Shown here: positions 319 through 35,949 of the stretch, piece by piece
Layout of the letters: each line of letters starts with the position of its first letter
Position numbering within the stretch: the first letter of the stretch is position 1
Source of the DNA: a virus
Reading direction: 5' to 3' (one strand)
Virus record (IMG/VR): IMGVR_UViG_3300044712_001059
Location: 1 to 35,949 of that record
DNA length: 35,949 nucleotides
The notes under the pieces: generated by a model
Database searches by the model: none
Told to the model about the DNA's origin: nothing
The model's input: the letters and a program-made list of their open reading frames with translations, nothing else
Position numbers and translations under genes: made by a program

Positions 319-347
319 TTGAAAAATGCCATTTTGGGTGCTATATT
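319..347 (+). promoter_or_regulatory. Rightward sigma70-like promoter of the folded RNA
   Basis: TTGAAA (319-324), a 17-nt spacer and TATATT (342-347). Transcription would start near 354, just before a run of stable helices and with no reading frame following. This supports a dedicated RNA gene. Confidence 0.6.
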
Positions 348-353
348 CTCCCT

Positions 354-499
354 GTTCTTTGACAAATGTCGGATTGGTACCCGACCGTAAACACACATCG
401 AGGCCGTAAGGCCATTACATACCCGCCTACTTGAGGTTTAAAGTACCAACTTTGACCTTGATGTGGGCCTCAGTGGGCGGATATGTGCTGGTCTTTTTT
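354..499 (+). ncRNA. Candidate structured small RNA with pseudoknot and T-run terminator
   Basis: No credible protein is encoded here. From the promoter at 319-347 the RNA would carry: a hairpin GTCGG/CCGAC near 368-385; GGCC-GTAA-GGCC at 402-413; a long helix pairing 417-436 with 468-486 (about 18 pairs, one mismatch, one bulge); and a small AAAG/CTTT hairpin inside that loop. The stretch 394-403 (CACATCGAGG) can also pair with 456-465 (CCTTGATGTG). The first lies outside the long helix and the second lies inside its loop, so the pairing would form a pseudoknot. A run of six T at 494-499 follows the helix, as at an intrinsic terminator. I do not recognise the family. The fold was worked out by eye. 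Confidence 0.6.
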
Positions 500-722
500 A
501 ATACCCGGTTAAAGGATAATTCTCTGTCTTGCTACGGGGCAGAAGTGGAGTAACAAAGTGGCGATTTTATCCTTTAATCCATACCAGCATGACTGGCCTT
601 CTCTGCCGCAAGTGCGGCCGCCCGATAGTAATTCGGACAAAGAAAAACGGGGACAAATACCCCGTTCATACTCATTAGCCGTGAGTTCAGCCCCATCGAA
701 AGGTGGGGCTTTCTTGTATATA
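500..722 (+). other. Further hairpin-rich non-coding stretch after the small RNA
   Basis: Several stems can be seen: AAAGGATAA (511-519) with TTATCCTTT (567-575); CCAG/CTGG (584-596); GCCGC-AAGT-GCGGC (605-618); and AACGGGG (646-652) with CCCCGTT (660-666). The stretch ends in the terminator hairpin at 689-716. It may be a second RNA, or the 3' part of one long transcript that reads through the T-run at 494-499. No convincing gene was found on either strand. Confidence 0.4.
689..716 (+). terminator. Rho-independent terminator, rightward
   Basis: AGCCCCA (689-695), an 8-nt loop, TGGGGCT (704-710), then a T-rich tail from 711. It closes the non-coding region before the next late promoter. Confidence 0.65.
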
Positions 723-775
723 TTATCGGACAAGTAATGTCAAGTTGGCAAGTGTAATTCCTTGACTAATCCAAC

Positions 776-819
776 TTGCATTTTCGCTGACCTGGCGTAT
801 CTTCAGAAATTGGCGCAGG
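776..819 (+). promoter_or_regulatory. Late promoter cassette, copy 1
   Basis: TTGCAT (776-781), 16 nt, TATCTT (798-803), then GGCGCAGG (812-819), with the ATG at 835. The same order and spacing recur before the genes at 1549, 15701 and 28125. GGCGCAGG would lie at the very start of the transcript. Confidence 0.75.
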
Positions 820-834
820 TGGAATCATAAATTT

Positions 835-1489: not shown

Positions 1490-1533
1490 TTGCTTTTTTA
1501 AAATTCTGGCGTATCTTTCAGAATTGGCGCAGG
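1490..1533 (+). promoter_or_regulatory. Late promoter cassette, copy 2
   Basis: TTGCTT (1490-1495), 16 nt, TATCTT (1512-1517), GGCGCAGG (1526-1533), with the ATG at 1549. The GGCGCAGG-to-ATG gap is 15 nt, as in copy 1. Confidence 0.75.
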
Positions 1534-1548
1534 TTGAAGTCTTCAATC

Positions 1549-7106: not shown

Positions 7107-7181
7107 TGGTAGCGGAGGCCGGAATCGAACCGGCATCCTCCTGCTTATGAGACAGGCGAGTGGCCATCACTCTGCTCCGCG
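7107..7181 (-). tRNA. tRNA with CAT anticodon (Met, or Ile2 if lysidine-modified)
   Basis: A 75-nt cloverleaf read on the minus strand: acceptor CGCGGAG/CTCCGCT, D stem GAGT/ACTC, anticodon stem CCTGT/GCAGG with loop CTCATAA, variable AGGAT, T arm GCCGG-TTCGATT-CCGGC, discriminator A and an encoded CCA. The first acceptor pair is C1 opposite U72, a mismatch like the unpaired first position of bacterial initiator tRNA. However, the three G:C pairs typical of initiator anticodon stems are absent. An elongator tRNA-Met or tRNA-Ile2 is therefore more likely. The 5' 37 bases overlap the end of the gene at 7145-7765. Confidence 0.92.
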
Positions 7182-9118: not shown

Positions 9119-9733
9119 TTATTTTTTGGGAACATAAATGATAAATTTTCCTTCAACTACTCCACAGGGATAAAGTCCCATCTCCCACAAAGGGATGAGA
9201 TTAATAAAATTGCCTTTTGGATATTTCCTTTTATACGCCGGTTCGTTAAGCGCCAGAACGTCAGCGGCAGCCCTGGCGGCATCCCAGGCGGCATCCCAGG
9301 CGGCATCCCTGGCGGCATCCCAGGCGGCATCCCTGGCGGCATCCCTGGCGGCATCCCAGGCGGCATCCCTGGCGGCATCCCAGGCGGCATCCCAGGCGGC
9401 ATCCCTGGCGGCATCCCTGGCGGCATCCCTGGCGGCAGCCCTGGCGGCAGCCCTGGCGGCATCCCAGACGGCATCCCAGGCGGCAGCCCTGGCGGCATCC
9501 CAGACGGCATCCCAGGCGGCAGCCCTGGCGGCAGCCCAATCTTGTGGAGTTTTTAAGTCTCTATATTCAATCTTGGCTTCCAGACCAAATGCTTTAAGGC
9601 AAACTTTTATCTGTTTATCAACTTTCTTCGTGTCTAAATCGCCGACTTTAAACCACTGGATCGCTTTAATACGATCAACAAACTGGTCTAATTGTTTCTC
9701 GACCTTCACGGGTAACTTCTGATTATATTTCAT
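9119..9733 (-). CDS. DAAW/DAAR tetrapeptide-repeat protein
   Basis: A 204-residue protein from ATG 9733 ([20 protein letters not shown]), chosen over 9832 because AATAACC abuts it. Three parts: a helical N-terminal domain (1-66), about 22 tetrapeptides DAAW, DAAR or AAAR (67-157), and a conserved-looking end, [20 protein letters not shown]. Long alanine helices with Asp and Trp or Arg every fourth residue are found in various phage proteins of unknown function; here they may form a rod or spacer between the two ends. All frames through the repeat stay open, so other frames in this stretch are not evidence for genes. Confidence 0.75.
9263..9535 (-). repeat. 12-bp tandem repeat inside the DAAW/DAAR gene
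   Basis: About 22 tandem 12-bp units, on the plus strand mainly GGCGGCATCCCT or GGCGGCATCCCA with some GGCGGCAGCCCT. Unit gain or loss keeps the reading frame and changes only the length of the helical segment. Confidence 0.95.
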
Positions 9734-9752
9734 GGTTATTATTAAAAAATAA

Positions 9753-9935
9753 TTAATTTCTAAGTTTAGTTCCCCGTAAATACAGGGCAGCTGCCAGGCA
9801 CGGTAAAAGAGTCCCGACGATGGCAAATCCAAACAGACCGGCGGATATCTTGTAGGTTACAATCATCAGATAAACGCCCCAGATCATGTTGAACAGGAGC
9901 AGGGAAAGAGTGCAGACGTGGATAATTGTCTTCAT
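9753..9935 (-). CDS. Small membrane protein with two spans
   Basis: A 60-residue protein. Hydrophobic segments at about residues 4-27 and 33-53 are separated by a short polar turn (TYKIS), and a basic tail follows (RGTKLRN). The box ATAACCAAAACAAA precedes the ATG. It sits right after the transglycosylase in the operon, so it may help that enzyme at the membrane, or it may be an early holin-like protein. Function not known. Confidence 0.65.
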   Translation of the reverse strand: MKTIIHVCTLSLLLFNMIWGVYLMIVTYKISAGLFGFAIVGTLLPCLAAALYLRGTKLRN

Positions 9936-15640: not shown

Positions 15641-15684
15641 TTGACATTAAGGATTTCGGGCGTATCTTGCTGAATTGGCGCAGG
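15641..15684 (+). promoter_or_regulatory. Late promoter cassette, copy 3
   Basis: A consensus TTGACA (15641-15646), 16 nt, TATCTT (15663-15668), GGCGCAGG (15677-15684), with the ATG at 15701. It begins only 2 nt after the terL stop. Confidence 0.8.
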
Positions 15685-15700
15685 GTTAAGCATTATTTGA

Positions 15701-17590
15701 ATGCCTACCCCATCAAAGGAACTGCAGAATCGGATTGTATCCGAGTTGCTCGAAACCTACAAAAACTATCAGGACCTGAACAAGACACGGAACTCCAGGC
15801 TACTTGATATTTATAAGGCTGTTTCGACGTATAAAGAGGAAAGAAAGGCCGATTATATGACCGATATCAAGGTCAATAAGGCCCATGAGGTTATCGAGCG
15901 CGTGCTCCCCCGGATAATTGCCAAAAATCCCCGGTGGATTGTCACCCCAAAGACCAACGATTTCTATCCAGAGCAGGCTCTGCCTACCTACAATCCCGAT
16001 GATCCGGCCAGTATCGAGGTTTATAATAAAGCCCTGGCTGATAAACGCCAGAAAACAACCGATTACAGCCGGGCAATCCAGGATTATCTGTCCTACATTT
16101 TTGATGAATACCACTTTGAGGATGCCTTAAGAGCCTTTGCCAAGACCGGTATCGTTTACGGCAAATCCCGGGCAAAAATCAGCTATAAATACGAAACAAT
16201 CCGCAATCTTGTCGACGTAGAAACGCCTGATGGGATGAAAAAAGAGGTCCAGGAGGATGTGACTGGCGAATATCCGTTCATCGATGTAAAAAGCTGGACT
16301 GAAACTTTGTCGGATCCGCGCTTCAAGAATGTTCAGGACTCCAGCGCTGAATTTGAGATAGTAAATGGCGTTCGGTTATCAGCAATCCGAAGAAAAAAAC
16401 AAGAATATTTCAATCTGGACCAGCTCGAAGATGTTTGTAGCCTGAAGATGGTCAACGACGATCTCGACACCTACAAAAAACAGGTCATGAGCGTCGCCGG
16501 TATCCAGACGCTGGATGTAAAGGCTCCGATTGATAAAAACGGCCTGTCACTACTTAATGTCTGGACTTTATTCGATGAAAACGAGGACGGGGAGGACAAA
16601 CTTTATAAAGCGACCATAATCCCGGAACTGCAGATTTTGATTGGATGGAAAGAGGTTACTAAAAAGCCTTTTGTAGATTTCAGAGTTTTTGAGGATGTCG
16701 AAACAAACTTCGACGTCGGTTTTGTTGAGCCCATTATCGGCTTGATGGATGAGCTTTCCTTTCAGAAGAACGCCGCCATCAACTTTGTAAATCAGGCGCT
16801 GAACCGGACTTTTGTCTGGTCCCCGAACTCAAACATCGACCCCAGAGACCTGATCTCCAAACCTTACGGGGTGATCCCCACTACCGGGGATGTGACAACC
16901 GCAATGCAGAACCTTCAGGAACTGCCGATGCGGCAACTCCCATCAGACTATTTTCAGCTCCAAAACGATATTGAACGTCAGATCCAGACCCAGACATTTA
17001 CCGTCGACACTTCAAATCCGAAGTCAGAACAGGCTTTGACCAATACCGCTACCGGGGCTCGCATAGAATTTTTTGAATCGAACTCCGTCCTAGATCAGGT
17101 CCGGAAAAACTATGAAGGCGCTCTGTCTCAGCTCGCCTATCTCTTACTCCAGGAGGCATTTGAAAACATGAGCGACAATATTGTGCTCAAGAAACTTGGC
17201 GCCGAAGAATACTGGGATCTACACCGGGAGGTTTTAAGGAACGCGGTCACTAGATATTCAATCACAGTCGAGGTCGGATCTTCCACCTATGACGACATTG
17301 CCAATCGCCGGGCTGATGCCATGGCCTTCTGGAACGTGCTCATGCAGGCCCAGAAAGCAGGCGAAAAAATTAAACTACGCCCAGCAGTTGAAGATATTGC
17401 AGCGACTTTTGAGAAAAAAGACCTCTCAAAATACTACGACAATTCAGTGGATATGGCGGCAATCGCTAATACCATGCCGGCATCAGGATCACCAAGTTTC
17501 AACAAGGCAGCTATCCCAGAACCGCCACCGACGCCGGCCGACGTTGTTCAACAGGTCTCCGGTGGAGAACTATTAACCGCAGGACAATAA
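15701..17590 (+). CDS. Portal protein (podovirus type)
   Basis: A 629-residue protein directly after terL. Its start, with TRNSRLLDIYKAVSTYKEER, VNKAHEVIERVLPRIIAKNP and RW, is typical of portal proteins of the P22/podovirus kind. Long helical stretches follow, then an end rich in Pro and Gln. It would form the dodecameric ring at the capsid vertex that the terminase docks on. There is no motif as sharp as in an enzyme; the call rests on position, size and the N-terminal pattern. Driven by late promoter copy 3. Confidence 0.85.
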   Translation: MPTPSKELQNRIVSELLETYKNYQDLNKTRNSRLLDIYKAVSTYKEERKADYMTDIKVNKAHEVIERVLPRIIAKNPRWIVTPKTNDFYPEQALPTYNPDDPASIEVYNKALADKRQKTTDYSRAIQDYLSYIFDEYHFEDALRAFAKTGIVYGKSRAKISYKYETIRNLVDVETPDGMKKEVQEDVTGEYPFIDVKSWTETLSDPRFKNVQDSSAEFEIVNGVRLSAIRRKKQEYFNLDQLEDVCSLKMVNDDLDTYKKQVMSVAGIQTLDVKAPIDKNGLSLLNVWTLFDENEDGEDKLYKATIIPELQILIGWKEVTKKPFVDFRVFEDVETNFDVGFVEPIIGLMDELSFQKNAAINFVNQALNRTFVWSPNSNIDPRDLISKPYGVIPTTGDVTTAMQNLQELPMRQLPSDYFQLQNDIERQIQTQTFTVDTSNPKSEQALTNTATGARIEFFESNSVLDQVRKNYEGALSQLAYLLLQEAFENMSDNIVLKKLGAEEYWDLHREVLRNAVTRYSITVEVGSSTYDDIANRRADAMAFWNVLMQAQKAGEKIKLRPAVEDIAATFEKKDLSKYYDNSVDMAAIANTMPASGSPSFNKAAIPEPPPTPADVVQQVSGGELLTAGQ

Positions 17591-17867: not shown

Positions 17868-17871
17868 CGCT

Positions 17872-17919
17872 TGGTGGGGACAGGTTTTTATCCTAAACCT
17901 GCGCCTATCCTCCCCACCA
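17872..17919 (+). other. Long intergenic RNA hairpin between portal and scaffold genes
   Basis: TGGTGGGGA (17872-17880) pairs with TCCCCACCA (17911-17919), and inside it CAGGTTT (17881-17887) pairs with AAACCTG (17895-17901). No T-run follows, so it is more likely an mRNA processing or stability element than a terminator. Confidence 0.6.
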
Positions 17920-17963
17920 GGCATGAGCCCTTAAAGCTCTGATAATTAATAACCCAAACAAGA

Positions 17964-18626: not shown

Positions 18627-18675
18627 ACAGGCGAAAACTTAGGATAAAAGTTATTTCATTAATTTTTATCTAAAT

Positions 18676-28060: not shown

Positions 28061-28065
28061 TTGGC

Positions 28066-28108
28066 TTGCGAATAATAGGATAGCTTGTATAGTCAGGATA
28101 GGCGCAGG
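28066..28108 (+). promoter_or_regulatory. Late promoter cassette, copy 4
   Basis: TTGCGA (28066-28071), 16 nt, TATAGT (28088-28093), GGCGCAGG (28101-28108), with the ATG at 28125. The -10 differs from the other three copies, but GGCGCAGG and the spacing are kept. Confidence 0.7.
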
Positions 28109-28124
28109 GATAAACGATAAAAAT

Positions 28125-30566
28125 ATGTCGATCACTGTGCCGTTGGAAGATAATTACGAAGCGATTTTAACTCAGGCAGTTGCCGCTTCGGCATCAGCAC
28201 TTACTCTTTACGTTTCGAAAACGCCCGTCTTCACAATGCCCGCCGGCCGAGAGGTGGTGGTTACGATTGACCCGGGCAGGGGATTTCTCTACCAGGAAAA
28301 CTGTCTGATGGAGAGTTACGACGCGGTGAACAAAACAATTACTCTTAAAGCCGCCGGAAGGGCGCAATTAAGATACGCCGGGGATGCTCCGACTGCCTTG
28401 CCCCATGCGGTAGGTGCGAAGGTGATTATCTCCGACAATTATCTTGTCTGGGAGCAGTTAAATGATTATTTACCACTTGCAGGAGGGATTTTAACGGGCG
28501 CTCTTCAATTTGATGACGCTTTAACTCAGGTTATCCACAAGCTTGGCGACCTATATTTCAAATCAGATTTACAGGCTGAAATAAGCTTGTCGGCCTTAGC
28601 AAGCCTATCCGGGGTGAATGATAAAGTAAAAATCAGCGCCGCAGATACTACGGAAGGATATTTAAACGCAAAAATCAATGCCGCTCTGGGCCTGACATCT
28701 TCAATTACGAATCCCGCAGGAAACGAGGTGTTAAAACTGGATATCGACTTGGCTGATGCCAATGTCTTTTCTGCCACCGGCGCGAGTGGGAAAGTTCCTC
28801 TGGGTGGATTGACTGGTGAACTGGACCCTTCATGGATCCCCGCGATAAACCCCGAAGTCGGAACGTCCGCCGCGTCAATTACGAATAAAGATGTACTCAT
28901 CCAGGACGCAACGGGCCGAATGACACCAGCCGACGCTGATGCCATTGCCACCACCTTCAATTTAGGAGGAATTGCCGCCTCTGCCGCGGTTGGAGCAAAT
29001 GCTTCCGTAGATTTTATTCCACCCGGCCCAGTTGCCCCCATTGCTGCCCTCGCCATGGCTGAATATGGGAACGCAGTTCTAACCGCCCTCACACCTTCAA
29101 ATACTACTGTCGACACAGCTACAGACGCTCCGACCGCTATTGCGGAACGCAGGGCTCAAACATTCACAGCCTCGACAAACACATGGGAAGACAATCTGGT
29201 GTCGGCCACTCTTTATTTAACAAAGACCGGATCACCATCCGGTAATTCAGTAGTTTACCTCCATGCCACCTCGGGCAATCTCCCGATCAGTTCGGTTTCA
29301 CAAGTGGCCCAGGCAGCCAGTGACACAACCGACGCCCTGGCCAATGCGAATCACTGGAGAGCGCAGACATTTACACCTGCGGCTGGTGGTTATATCTCCA
29401 GTGCAAACATTTATCTATCAAAAGTCGGAGCGCCAGGAGGCAACTCTACCCTCTATCTGAGAGCGGTCGTCGCCGGAGTACCGAGTGGTGGAAATCTTGC
29501 CACTGCCACGGTTGTTGCCAACGCTGGCATCTCGACCGGTGTTGTTGCCTTCACCTTCCCGACCCCATATCTTCTGACTGCCGGGACTACCTATGCGCTG
29601 GTCTATTCACCAGGCACAGTTTCCGCTGGAAACACTTTGTCCTGGGATTATCAAAATTCGGATATCTATGCCGGTGGAAATTCCGCTCATTGCACGGATG
29701 GCGGCACTACCTGGACAGCAGACGCCTTTGATCGGAGATTTGAGGTTTTTTATAATGGGGAATTGGGAAGAGCAACGGTCGCTAACGCCTCAATCGCTAC
29801 CGGTGCCAACACATTTACCTTCGCAACGCCTGTTGCGCTTACGCCCGGCACTGTTTACGCTTTGGTCTATGAAGCTGGAGGCACTTCCGGTGGAAATGTG
29901 ATTGCCTGGAGTTACAATAACGGTGACGTCTATGCCGGGGGCCAGTCTGCACATTCGCACGACTCGGGCCAGAACTGGACGGCAGAAGCTACCTGGGATC
30001 GGTATTTCACCATGAAATATGGCGCCCTATACGGATGCCCGGCGTTCATCAGTTCAACAACCGGAGCAATCACGTTGTCACCTTATGCCGCTGGATCCGG
30101 AAAATATAATAAGCGGATTGGATATATTCTCTCCAGGACAAAATTAATTCTGGAACGTGGGCTCAGAAGCATCTACGCAACCTACAATTTCACGGCTGAC
30201 GCTACGGTCAACGTAGACACCGAGATTACGCTCGGATTTAGACCGTTTCTGGTCTTCGCAGCGTTGACCGCAGGTAGTGGAAGAGGGTCAAACGGGATGT
30301 GGATGTCTGGCGGAGTCAGTTTTTCAACAGAAAATAAAAACTCGGGAGTAGAAAGCAATGCGGCCACCGGATATTTTGGTTTATGGTCCGTAAATCTGGC
30401 CAACTGGTCAGGAATCAATCTCGGGACCGACGCGAACTATATGTTGGTTGCTCTAGACGTTACGGCTACCTCCGCAAATACGATCACCATCAGACGGACC
30501 TGTGTAGAAACGGGGGCCGGCTCAAGTTACAACATGACAGCTTATTTAAATATAATCGGTTGGTAA
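28125..30566 (+). CDS. Tail fibre with nested beta modules
   Basis: An 813-residue protein. Residues 1-110 look like a virion-attachment domain. Residues about 110-310 are a shaft-like region (LPLAGGILTGALQFDDALTQ and on). Residues about 340-640 hold beta modules: half-module A (RAQTFTASTNTWEDNL...), then a complete module A+B (RAQTFTPAAGGYISSANIYL through AGTTYALVYSPGT and SWDYQNSDIYAGGNS), then a second half-module B (TPGTVYALVYEAGGTSGGNV and on). The last 170 residues form a separate C-terminal domain. It probably binds the host envelope. Transcribed from late promoter copy 4. Confidence 0.75.
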   Translation: MSITVPLEDNYEAILTQAVAASASALTLYVSKTPVFTMPAGREVVVTIDPGRGFLYQENCLMESYDAVNKTITLKAAGRAQLRYAGDAPTALPHAVGAKVIISDNYLVWEQLNDYLPLAGGILTGALQFDDALTQVIHKLGDLYFKSDLQAEISLSALASLSGVNDKVKISAADTTEGYLNAKINAALGLTSSITNPAGNEVLKLDIDLADANVFSATGASGKVPLGGLTGELDPSWIPAINPEVGTSAASITNKDVLIQDATGRMTPADADAIATTFNLGGIAASAAVGANASVDFIPPGPVAPIAALAMAEYGNAVLTALTPSNTTVDTATDAPTAIAERRAQTFTASTNTWEDNLVSATLYLTKTGSPSGNSVVYLHATSGNLPISSVSQVAQAASDTTDALANANHWRAQTFTPAAGGYISSANIYLSKVGAPGGNSTLYLRAVVAGVPSGGNLATATVVANAGISTGVVAFTFPTPYLLTAGTTYALVYSPGTVSAGNTLSWDYQNSDIYAGGNSAHCTDGGTTWTADAFDRRFEVFYNGELGRATVANASIATGANTFTFATPVALTPGTVYALVYEAGGTSGGNVIAWSYNNGDVYAGGQSAHSHDSGQNWTAEATWDRYFTMKYGALYGCPAFISSTTGAITLSPYAAGSGKYNKRIGYILSRTKLILERGLRSIYATYNFTADATVNVDTEITLGFRPFLVFAALTAGSGRGSNGMWMSGGVSFSTENKNSGVESNAATGYFGLWSVNLANWSGINLGTDANYMLVALDVTATSANTITIRRTCVETGAGSSYNMTAYLNIIGW

Positions 30567-35667: not shown

Positions 35668-35949
35668 TTATTGTTTATTAGGCTTTAATTTACCAAAATA
35701 TATGTAGTAAAAAACTCTACGACCCATCTCAAATAGCCCCAGGATAATCAGATTATAAATGAAAAAATTAGTAATAAAACTCCATATATAGCCTTGGGAT
35801 ACATGCCATACAAAATCATCTACTTTGTGTTTCGGTGGATTCACTATATCAAACTCTGGGTTCTTTTGAGTTGTAAGGAATTGGTCACTTTTAGAAATGC
35901 CTGAGTAGGGAGAGGTGTTGTCGTATTTCCATGTAGAGCACTTATTCAA
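35668..35949 (-). CDS. Membrane protein, C-terminal part (gene crosses the window ends)
   Basis: This open frame enters from base 35949 and ends at 35668, giving 93 residues. It joins in frame with the 82 codons at 246-1. The part here has a polar stretch followed by a hydrophobic segment (YIWSFITNFFIYNLIILGLF) and a basic end (RRVFYYIYFGKLKPNKQ). There is no ATG near 35949 and none is needed if the sequence is circular. The complete protein would have two membrane spans with a soluble loop of about 95 residues. Confidence 0.7.
   Translation of the reverse strand: MNKCSTWKYDNTSPYSGISKSDQFLTTQKNPEFDIVNPPKHKVDDFVWHVSQGYIWSFITNFFIYNLIILGLFEMGRRVFYYIYFGKLKPNKQ

Follow-up and report, generated by a model that had tools for sequence, protein, structure and literature searches.

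What is encoded by positions 354-499 of the 35,949-nucleotide viral sequence analyzed here (the window): an sRNA in its own right, the leader of a neighboring gene, or sequence whose structure is fortuitous? The reading favored below, with somewhat less than even confidence, is that 354-499 is an orphan structured RNA, probably a stand-alone phage sRNA, putative and of a known kind; an attenuating leader is ranked behind it, and fortuitous structure last.

Genomic setting

When the record ends are joined, the minus-strand ORFs 1-297 and 35668-35949 become one in-frame coding sequence for a 175-aa membrane-like protein; the 35,949 bp therefore probably represent an entire, circular genome. Recognizable genes encode a terminase, a major head protein, a XerC-like integrase and an endolysin, and the phage is probably temperate. 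The candidate RNA is located in the largest gene-free gap of this phage (250-834, 585 nt), which is flanked by two minus-strand membrane-like genes and by a plus-strand block containing the endolysin, a position that reads as a moron-like break between late genes.

Gene starts in this phage almost entirely lack Shine-Dalgarno sequences. Of the 34 gene starts, 15 have a TAAYC motif in the preceding 20 nt, as compared with 38 of 968 other ATGs, and the same motif is frequent in a relative, L236. Separate observations made in the window include a 12-bp tandem repeat (9264-9537, 23 copies) encoding (A-A-R/W-D)n within the minus-strand ORF 9119-9832, and a plus-strand hairpin at 18643-18675 (TTAGGATAAAA/TTTTTATCTAA) that is immediately followed by the start codon of the gene for the major head protein, has the strongest z of the fold scan described below (-6.4), and may control translation of that gene.

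A promoter-like signal is shared by four plus-strand places and consists of TTGnnn-16-TATCTT/TATAGT followed by GAATTGGCGCAGG or its close variant GGATAGGCGCAGG:

775-820, plus strand, promoter-like site ahead of the gene at 835
1490-1535, plus strand, promoter-like site ahead of the gene at 1552
15641-15690, plus strand, promoter-like site ahead of the gene at 15701
28065-28110, plus strand, promoter-like site ahead of the gene at 28125

These sites probably form a promoter set under common regulation, in which the initially transcribed sequence is conserved. A strong plus-strand hairpin at 17870-17920 (GGTGGGGACAGG...CCTCCCCACC) was also observed, the loop side of which contains CCTGCGCCTATCC, complementary to the GGATAGGCGCAGG element. 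The promoter preceding the candidate RNA falls outside the four-member set, so that the RNA, in the manner of a moron, is probably under separate control.

A promoter, a stable fold and a terminator-like end

The features of the locus, as read from the sequence and from computed folds, are as follows:

319-347, plus strand, sigma70-type promoter, TTGAAA-17-TATATT (10/12 matches), with an extended -10 (TGC)
354-499, plus strand, predicted structured transcript (candidate sRNA or leader)
368-385, plus strand, 5' hairpin GUCGG/CCGAC with loop AUUGGUAC, populated in roughly half of the ensemble up to formation of the base stem
394-403, plus strand, 5' arm of a possible pseudoknot helix (S1)
402-413, plus strand, GNRA-type hairpin GGCC-GUAA-GGCC, competing with S1 and the terminator base
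417-436, plus strand, 5' strand of an 18-pair helix (S2) in the minimum free energy (MFE) fold
438-455, plus strand, inner hairpin of seven pairs with loop ACCA
456-465, plus strand, 3' arm of S1, within a bulge of S2
468-486, plus strand, 3' strand of S2
489-499, plus strand, terminator base (489-493, pairing with 410-414) followed by T6 (494-499)

Several elements of the preliminary description of this DNA are borne out by these data. The sigma70-like promoter that it placed at 319-347 is present, with TG ahead of the -10 element; both strands of the whole 36 kb together contain 11 sites that match at 10 or more of 12 positions, and no other of these has an extended -10. This unique, strong promoter, with a predicted transcription start at approximately 354, favors the sRNA reading. 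The stretch of about 145 nt said to be devoid of genes is overlapped by no ORF of at least 60 aa; small ORFs are possible at 367-435 and 461-553, the latter (461-550/553) having a borderline codon score within the top 2-3% of chance ORFs. The proposed helix between 417-436 and 468-486 has exactly 18 pairs, interrupted by a single A/C mismatch and a single bulged U, and the six T reported at the end lie directly 3' of the stem and form the sole T6 within 250-834. Speaking against the sRNA reading, the terminator hairpin, at 84 nt, is not of the classic short type.

The fold is unusually stable. The MFE of 354-499 is -53.4 kcal/mol, as compared with -37.6 +/- 4.0 kcal/mol in dinucleotide shuffles (z -3.95; 0 of 200 as low), and when fewer shuffles were used z was -4.26, a value undercut in just 3 of 796 other windows of equal length scanned genome-wide on both strands. 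That same scan shows comparable folding in several coding stretches, which counts against the sRNA reading. The minus strand of 354-499 is less stable (-46.4 kcal/mol, z -2.6), and greater stability of the plus strand is expected if the eight G-U pairs of 354-499 belong to an RNA.

Competing pairings and a possible pseudoknot

It had been suggested earlier that 394-403 pairs with 456-465 to form a pseudoknot. The complementarity lies where it was described and comprises 10 contiguous pairs, including one G-U, with the 3' arm placed in the 12 nt that bulge out from the 3' side of the long hairpin. When the 5' domain is shuffled, 0.3% of the shuffles contain a partner that matches this bulge as well or better (P 0.003), although 40% of shuffles have a 10-pair helix somewhere in the 146-mer if G-U is permitted. 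A pseudoknot is thus possible, as judged from the complementarity of one sequence.

A crude estimate, in which the nested energy with both arms free is added to that of the helix and a fixed pseudoknot penalty, places the pseudoknotted form at approximately -58 to -61 kcal/mol with the base stem 410-414/489-493 kept, versus -53.4 kcal/mol for the best nested fold, and at approximately -50 kcal/mol with the base stem forbidden. Read geometrically, the full pseudoknot and the base stem could hardly coexist, since a distance of more than 25 base pairs would have to be bridged by just six nucleotides; by the same crude estimate, the competing terminator and antiterminator helices are near-isoenergetic. 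In computed folds, nucleotides 402-414 are contested by S1, the GNRA-type hairpin and the terminator base, which are mutually exclusive, and the GNRA-type hairpin dominates the ensemble until about base 492 has been made, whereupon it is displaced by the base stem. The 3' end of the RNA may therefore contain a switch.

An additional alternative fold had been proposed between GAGGCC, previously assigned to 401-406 and in fact located one base to the left at 400-405, and GGCCTC (466-471). This fold is not populated in the computed ensemble and is excluded, since the long helix S2, at probability 1.00, takes the 3' partner and engages GGCCTC almost fully.

Search for relatives

In agreement with its earlier description as unrecognized, 354-499 yields nothing credible in Rfam at gathering or relaxed thresholds, the sole Rfam match of the whole window being a tRNA-Met at 7110-7181. 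The phage, plasmid and E. coli sequences searched with blastn gave chance matches only. A single-sequence covariance model found no match in 50 related records and genomes, in 380 genomes from the phylum of a Peregrinibacteria MAG, or in 113 genomes from the class of a Pelotomaculum MAG; a 22-nt exact pattern had no match, and a scan for CACATCGAGGCC gave unrelated matches only. Four IMG/VR matches to the pseudoknot-arm pattern, with wobble allowed, were rejected as chance hits, being unrelated near-palindromes that fail the RNA model.

Relatives of the phage itself can be recognized by their large terminases, which are 51% identical in L236, 48% identical in L156 (a contig binned as Pelotomaculum), and at most 43% identical in the rest, and the RNA is absent from the relatives found through the terminase and neighboring proteins. 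Altogether, exact-word scans and the one-sequence model identified no homologue in phage, plasmid, E. coli, related-phage and approximately 500 bacterial genomes. There are consequently no compensatory changes to count, and this lack of conservation or covariation in the sets searched weighs against the sRNA reading. As a separate observation, a distant relative binned as Pelotomaculum has a 193-nt gene-free stretch (L322 17218-17410; contig 35718-35910) with a fold of -62.3 kcal/mol; it precedes a putative peptidase gene and has no Rfam match.

The downstream unit and the alternative explanations

Three further features follow the candidate RNA within the same gap:

509-577, plus strand, hairpin TTAAAGGATAA/TTATCCTTTAA, just upstream of a small ORF
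589-678, plus strand, possible 29-aa zinc-ribbon-like ORF, MTGLLCRKCGRPIVIRTKKNGDKYPVHTH
689-715, plus strand, second terminator-like hairpin, AGCCCCATCGAAAGGTGGGGCT (689-710), followed by TTCTT

Given this ORF and its terminator, and given that no further plus-strand promoter site was found between 347 and 589, a leader or attenuator is a serious rival, and one that the original proposal of a stand-alone RNA overlooked. According to this explanation, which we hold to be possible at perhaps one chance in three, the RNA would be the 5' leader of ORF 589-678 and the T6 hairpin its attenuator: S1, or the GNRA-type hairpin holding 410-413, would block the base stem and permit readthrough, and the hairpin at 509-577 would cover the start region of the ORF. 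The three mutually exclusive uses of 402-414 speak for this explanation, as do the TAAYC motif upstream of the ORF, a terminator that begins 10 nt past its end, and Pfam zinc-ribbon matches to its product. Those matches, however, are weak (E 0.002-0.02) and fall below the curated cut-offs, the codon usage of the ORF resembles that of non-coding sequence, the explanation comes with no ligand, leader peptide or homologue, and the switch that it invokes relies on the folding of one sequence.

It is also conceivable, though unlikely, that the locus is ordinary intergenic sequence in which strong terminator hairpins and the promoter of a gene that is short or has decayed are accompanied by fortuitous pairings. 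The windows that fold equally well in the genome scan, the frequency of 10-pair helices in shuffles, the codon score of ORF 461-550, and the GGCC palindromes, able to pair with many sites, all suit this explanation; against it, a z of about -4, a pseudoknot arm at P 0.003, a unique promoter and a T6 coincide within one 180-nt stretch.

That a promoter, a structured non-coding stretch and a terminator-like end occur together beyond chance makes a stand-alone RNA plausible, and in this respect the original proposal stands. As a putative stand-alone sRNA of a temperate phage, 354-499 would have a promoter of its own, used by the RNA polymerase of the host, and an intrinsic terminator. It would be independent of ORF 589-678 and belong to a moron-like cassette flanked by late genes, and a fraction of its transcripts would probably extend as far as the second terminator (689-715). 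Such an sRNA might act in lysogeny or early infection. Antisense complementarity of the RNA to phage gene starts is no better than that of shuffled sequences, which counts against the sRNA reading, and any targets would be predicted to be host RNAs or proteins rather than phage start regions. A bolder proposal, in which the pseudoknot arm competes with the base of the 84-nt terminator and a host or phage factor acting on the pseudoknot switches the moron cassette, would define a new class of phage RNA, and we regard it as improbable.

Comparison with known systems

If transcribed, 354-499 would represent a structured RNA for which no relative was found, from a phage group that is distant from cultured phages (the closest terminase is 51% identical) and whose genes mostly start without a Shine-Dalgarno sequence, and would add to the little-explored regulatory RNAs of phages outside well-studied hosts; on its own it alters no general view. 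Phage-encoded sRNAs are a well-known kind that includes lambda PreS, DicF and AgvB, each shown to act on host RNAs, as well as lambda 6S RNA, and DicF resembles a Rho-independent terminator hairpin (review, PMC12197685). Like PreS, DicF and AgvB, 354-499 is predicted to be a short non-coding phage RNA; it differs in that no sequence relation to them was found and in that their action on host RNAs has been shown, whereas 354-499 is predicted only. At the lambda pR' promoter, 6S RNA is a short terminated RNA made ahead of further genes, and 354-499 likewise combines a promoter and a short terminated RNA before further genes; the present phage differs in having late-type promoters downstream (~775-815) and no known antiterminator site. 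Lastly, 354-499 is distinguished from transcription attenuators and riboswitch leaders by having neither an Rfam match nor a known ligand, and by a downstream ORF that is only possible, and yet resembles them in that its competing pairings could decide whether the stem preceding the T-run forms.
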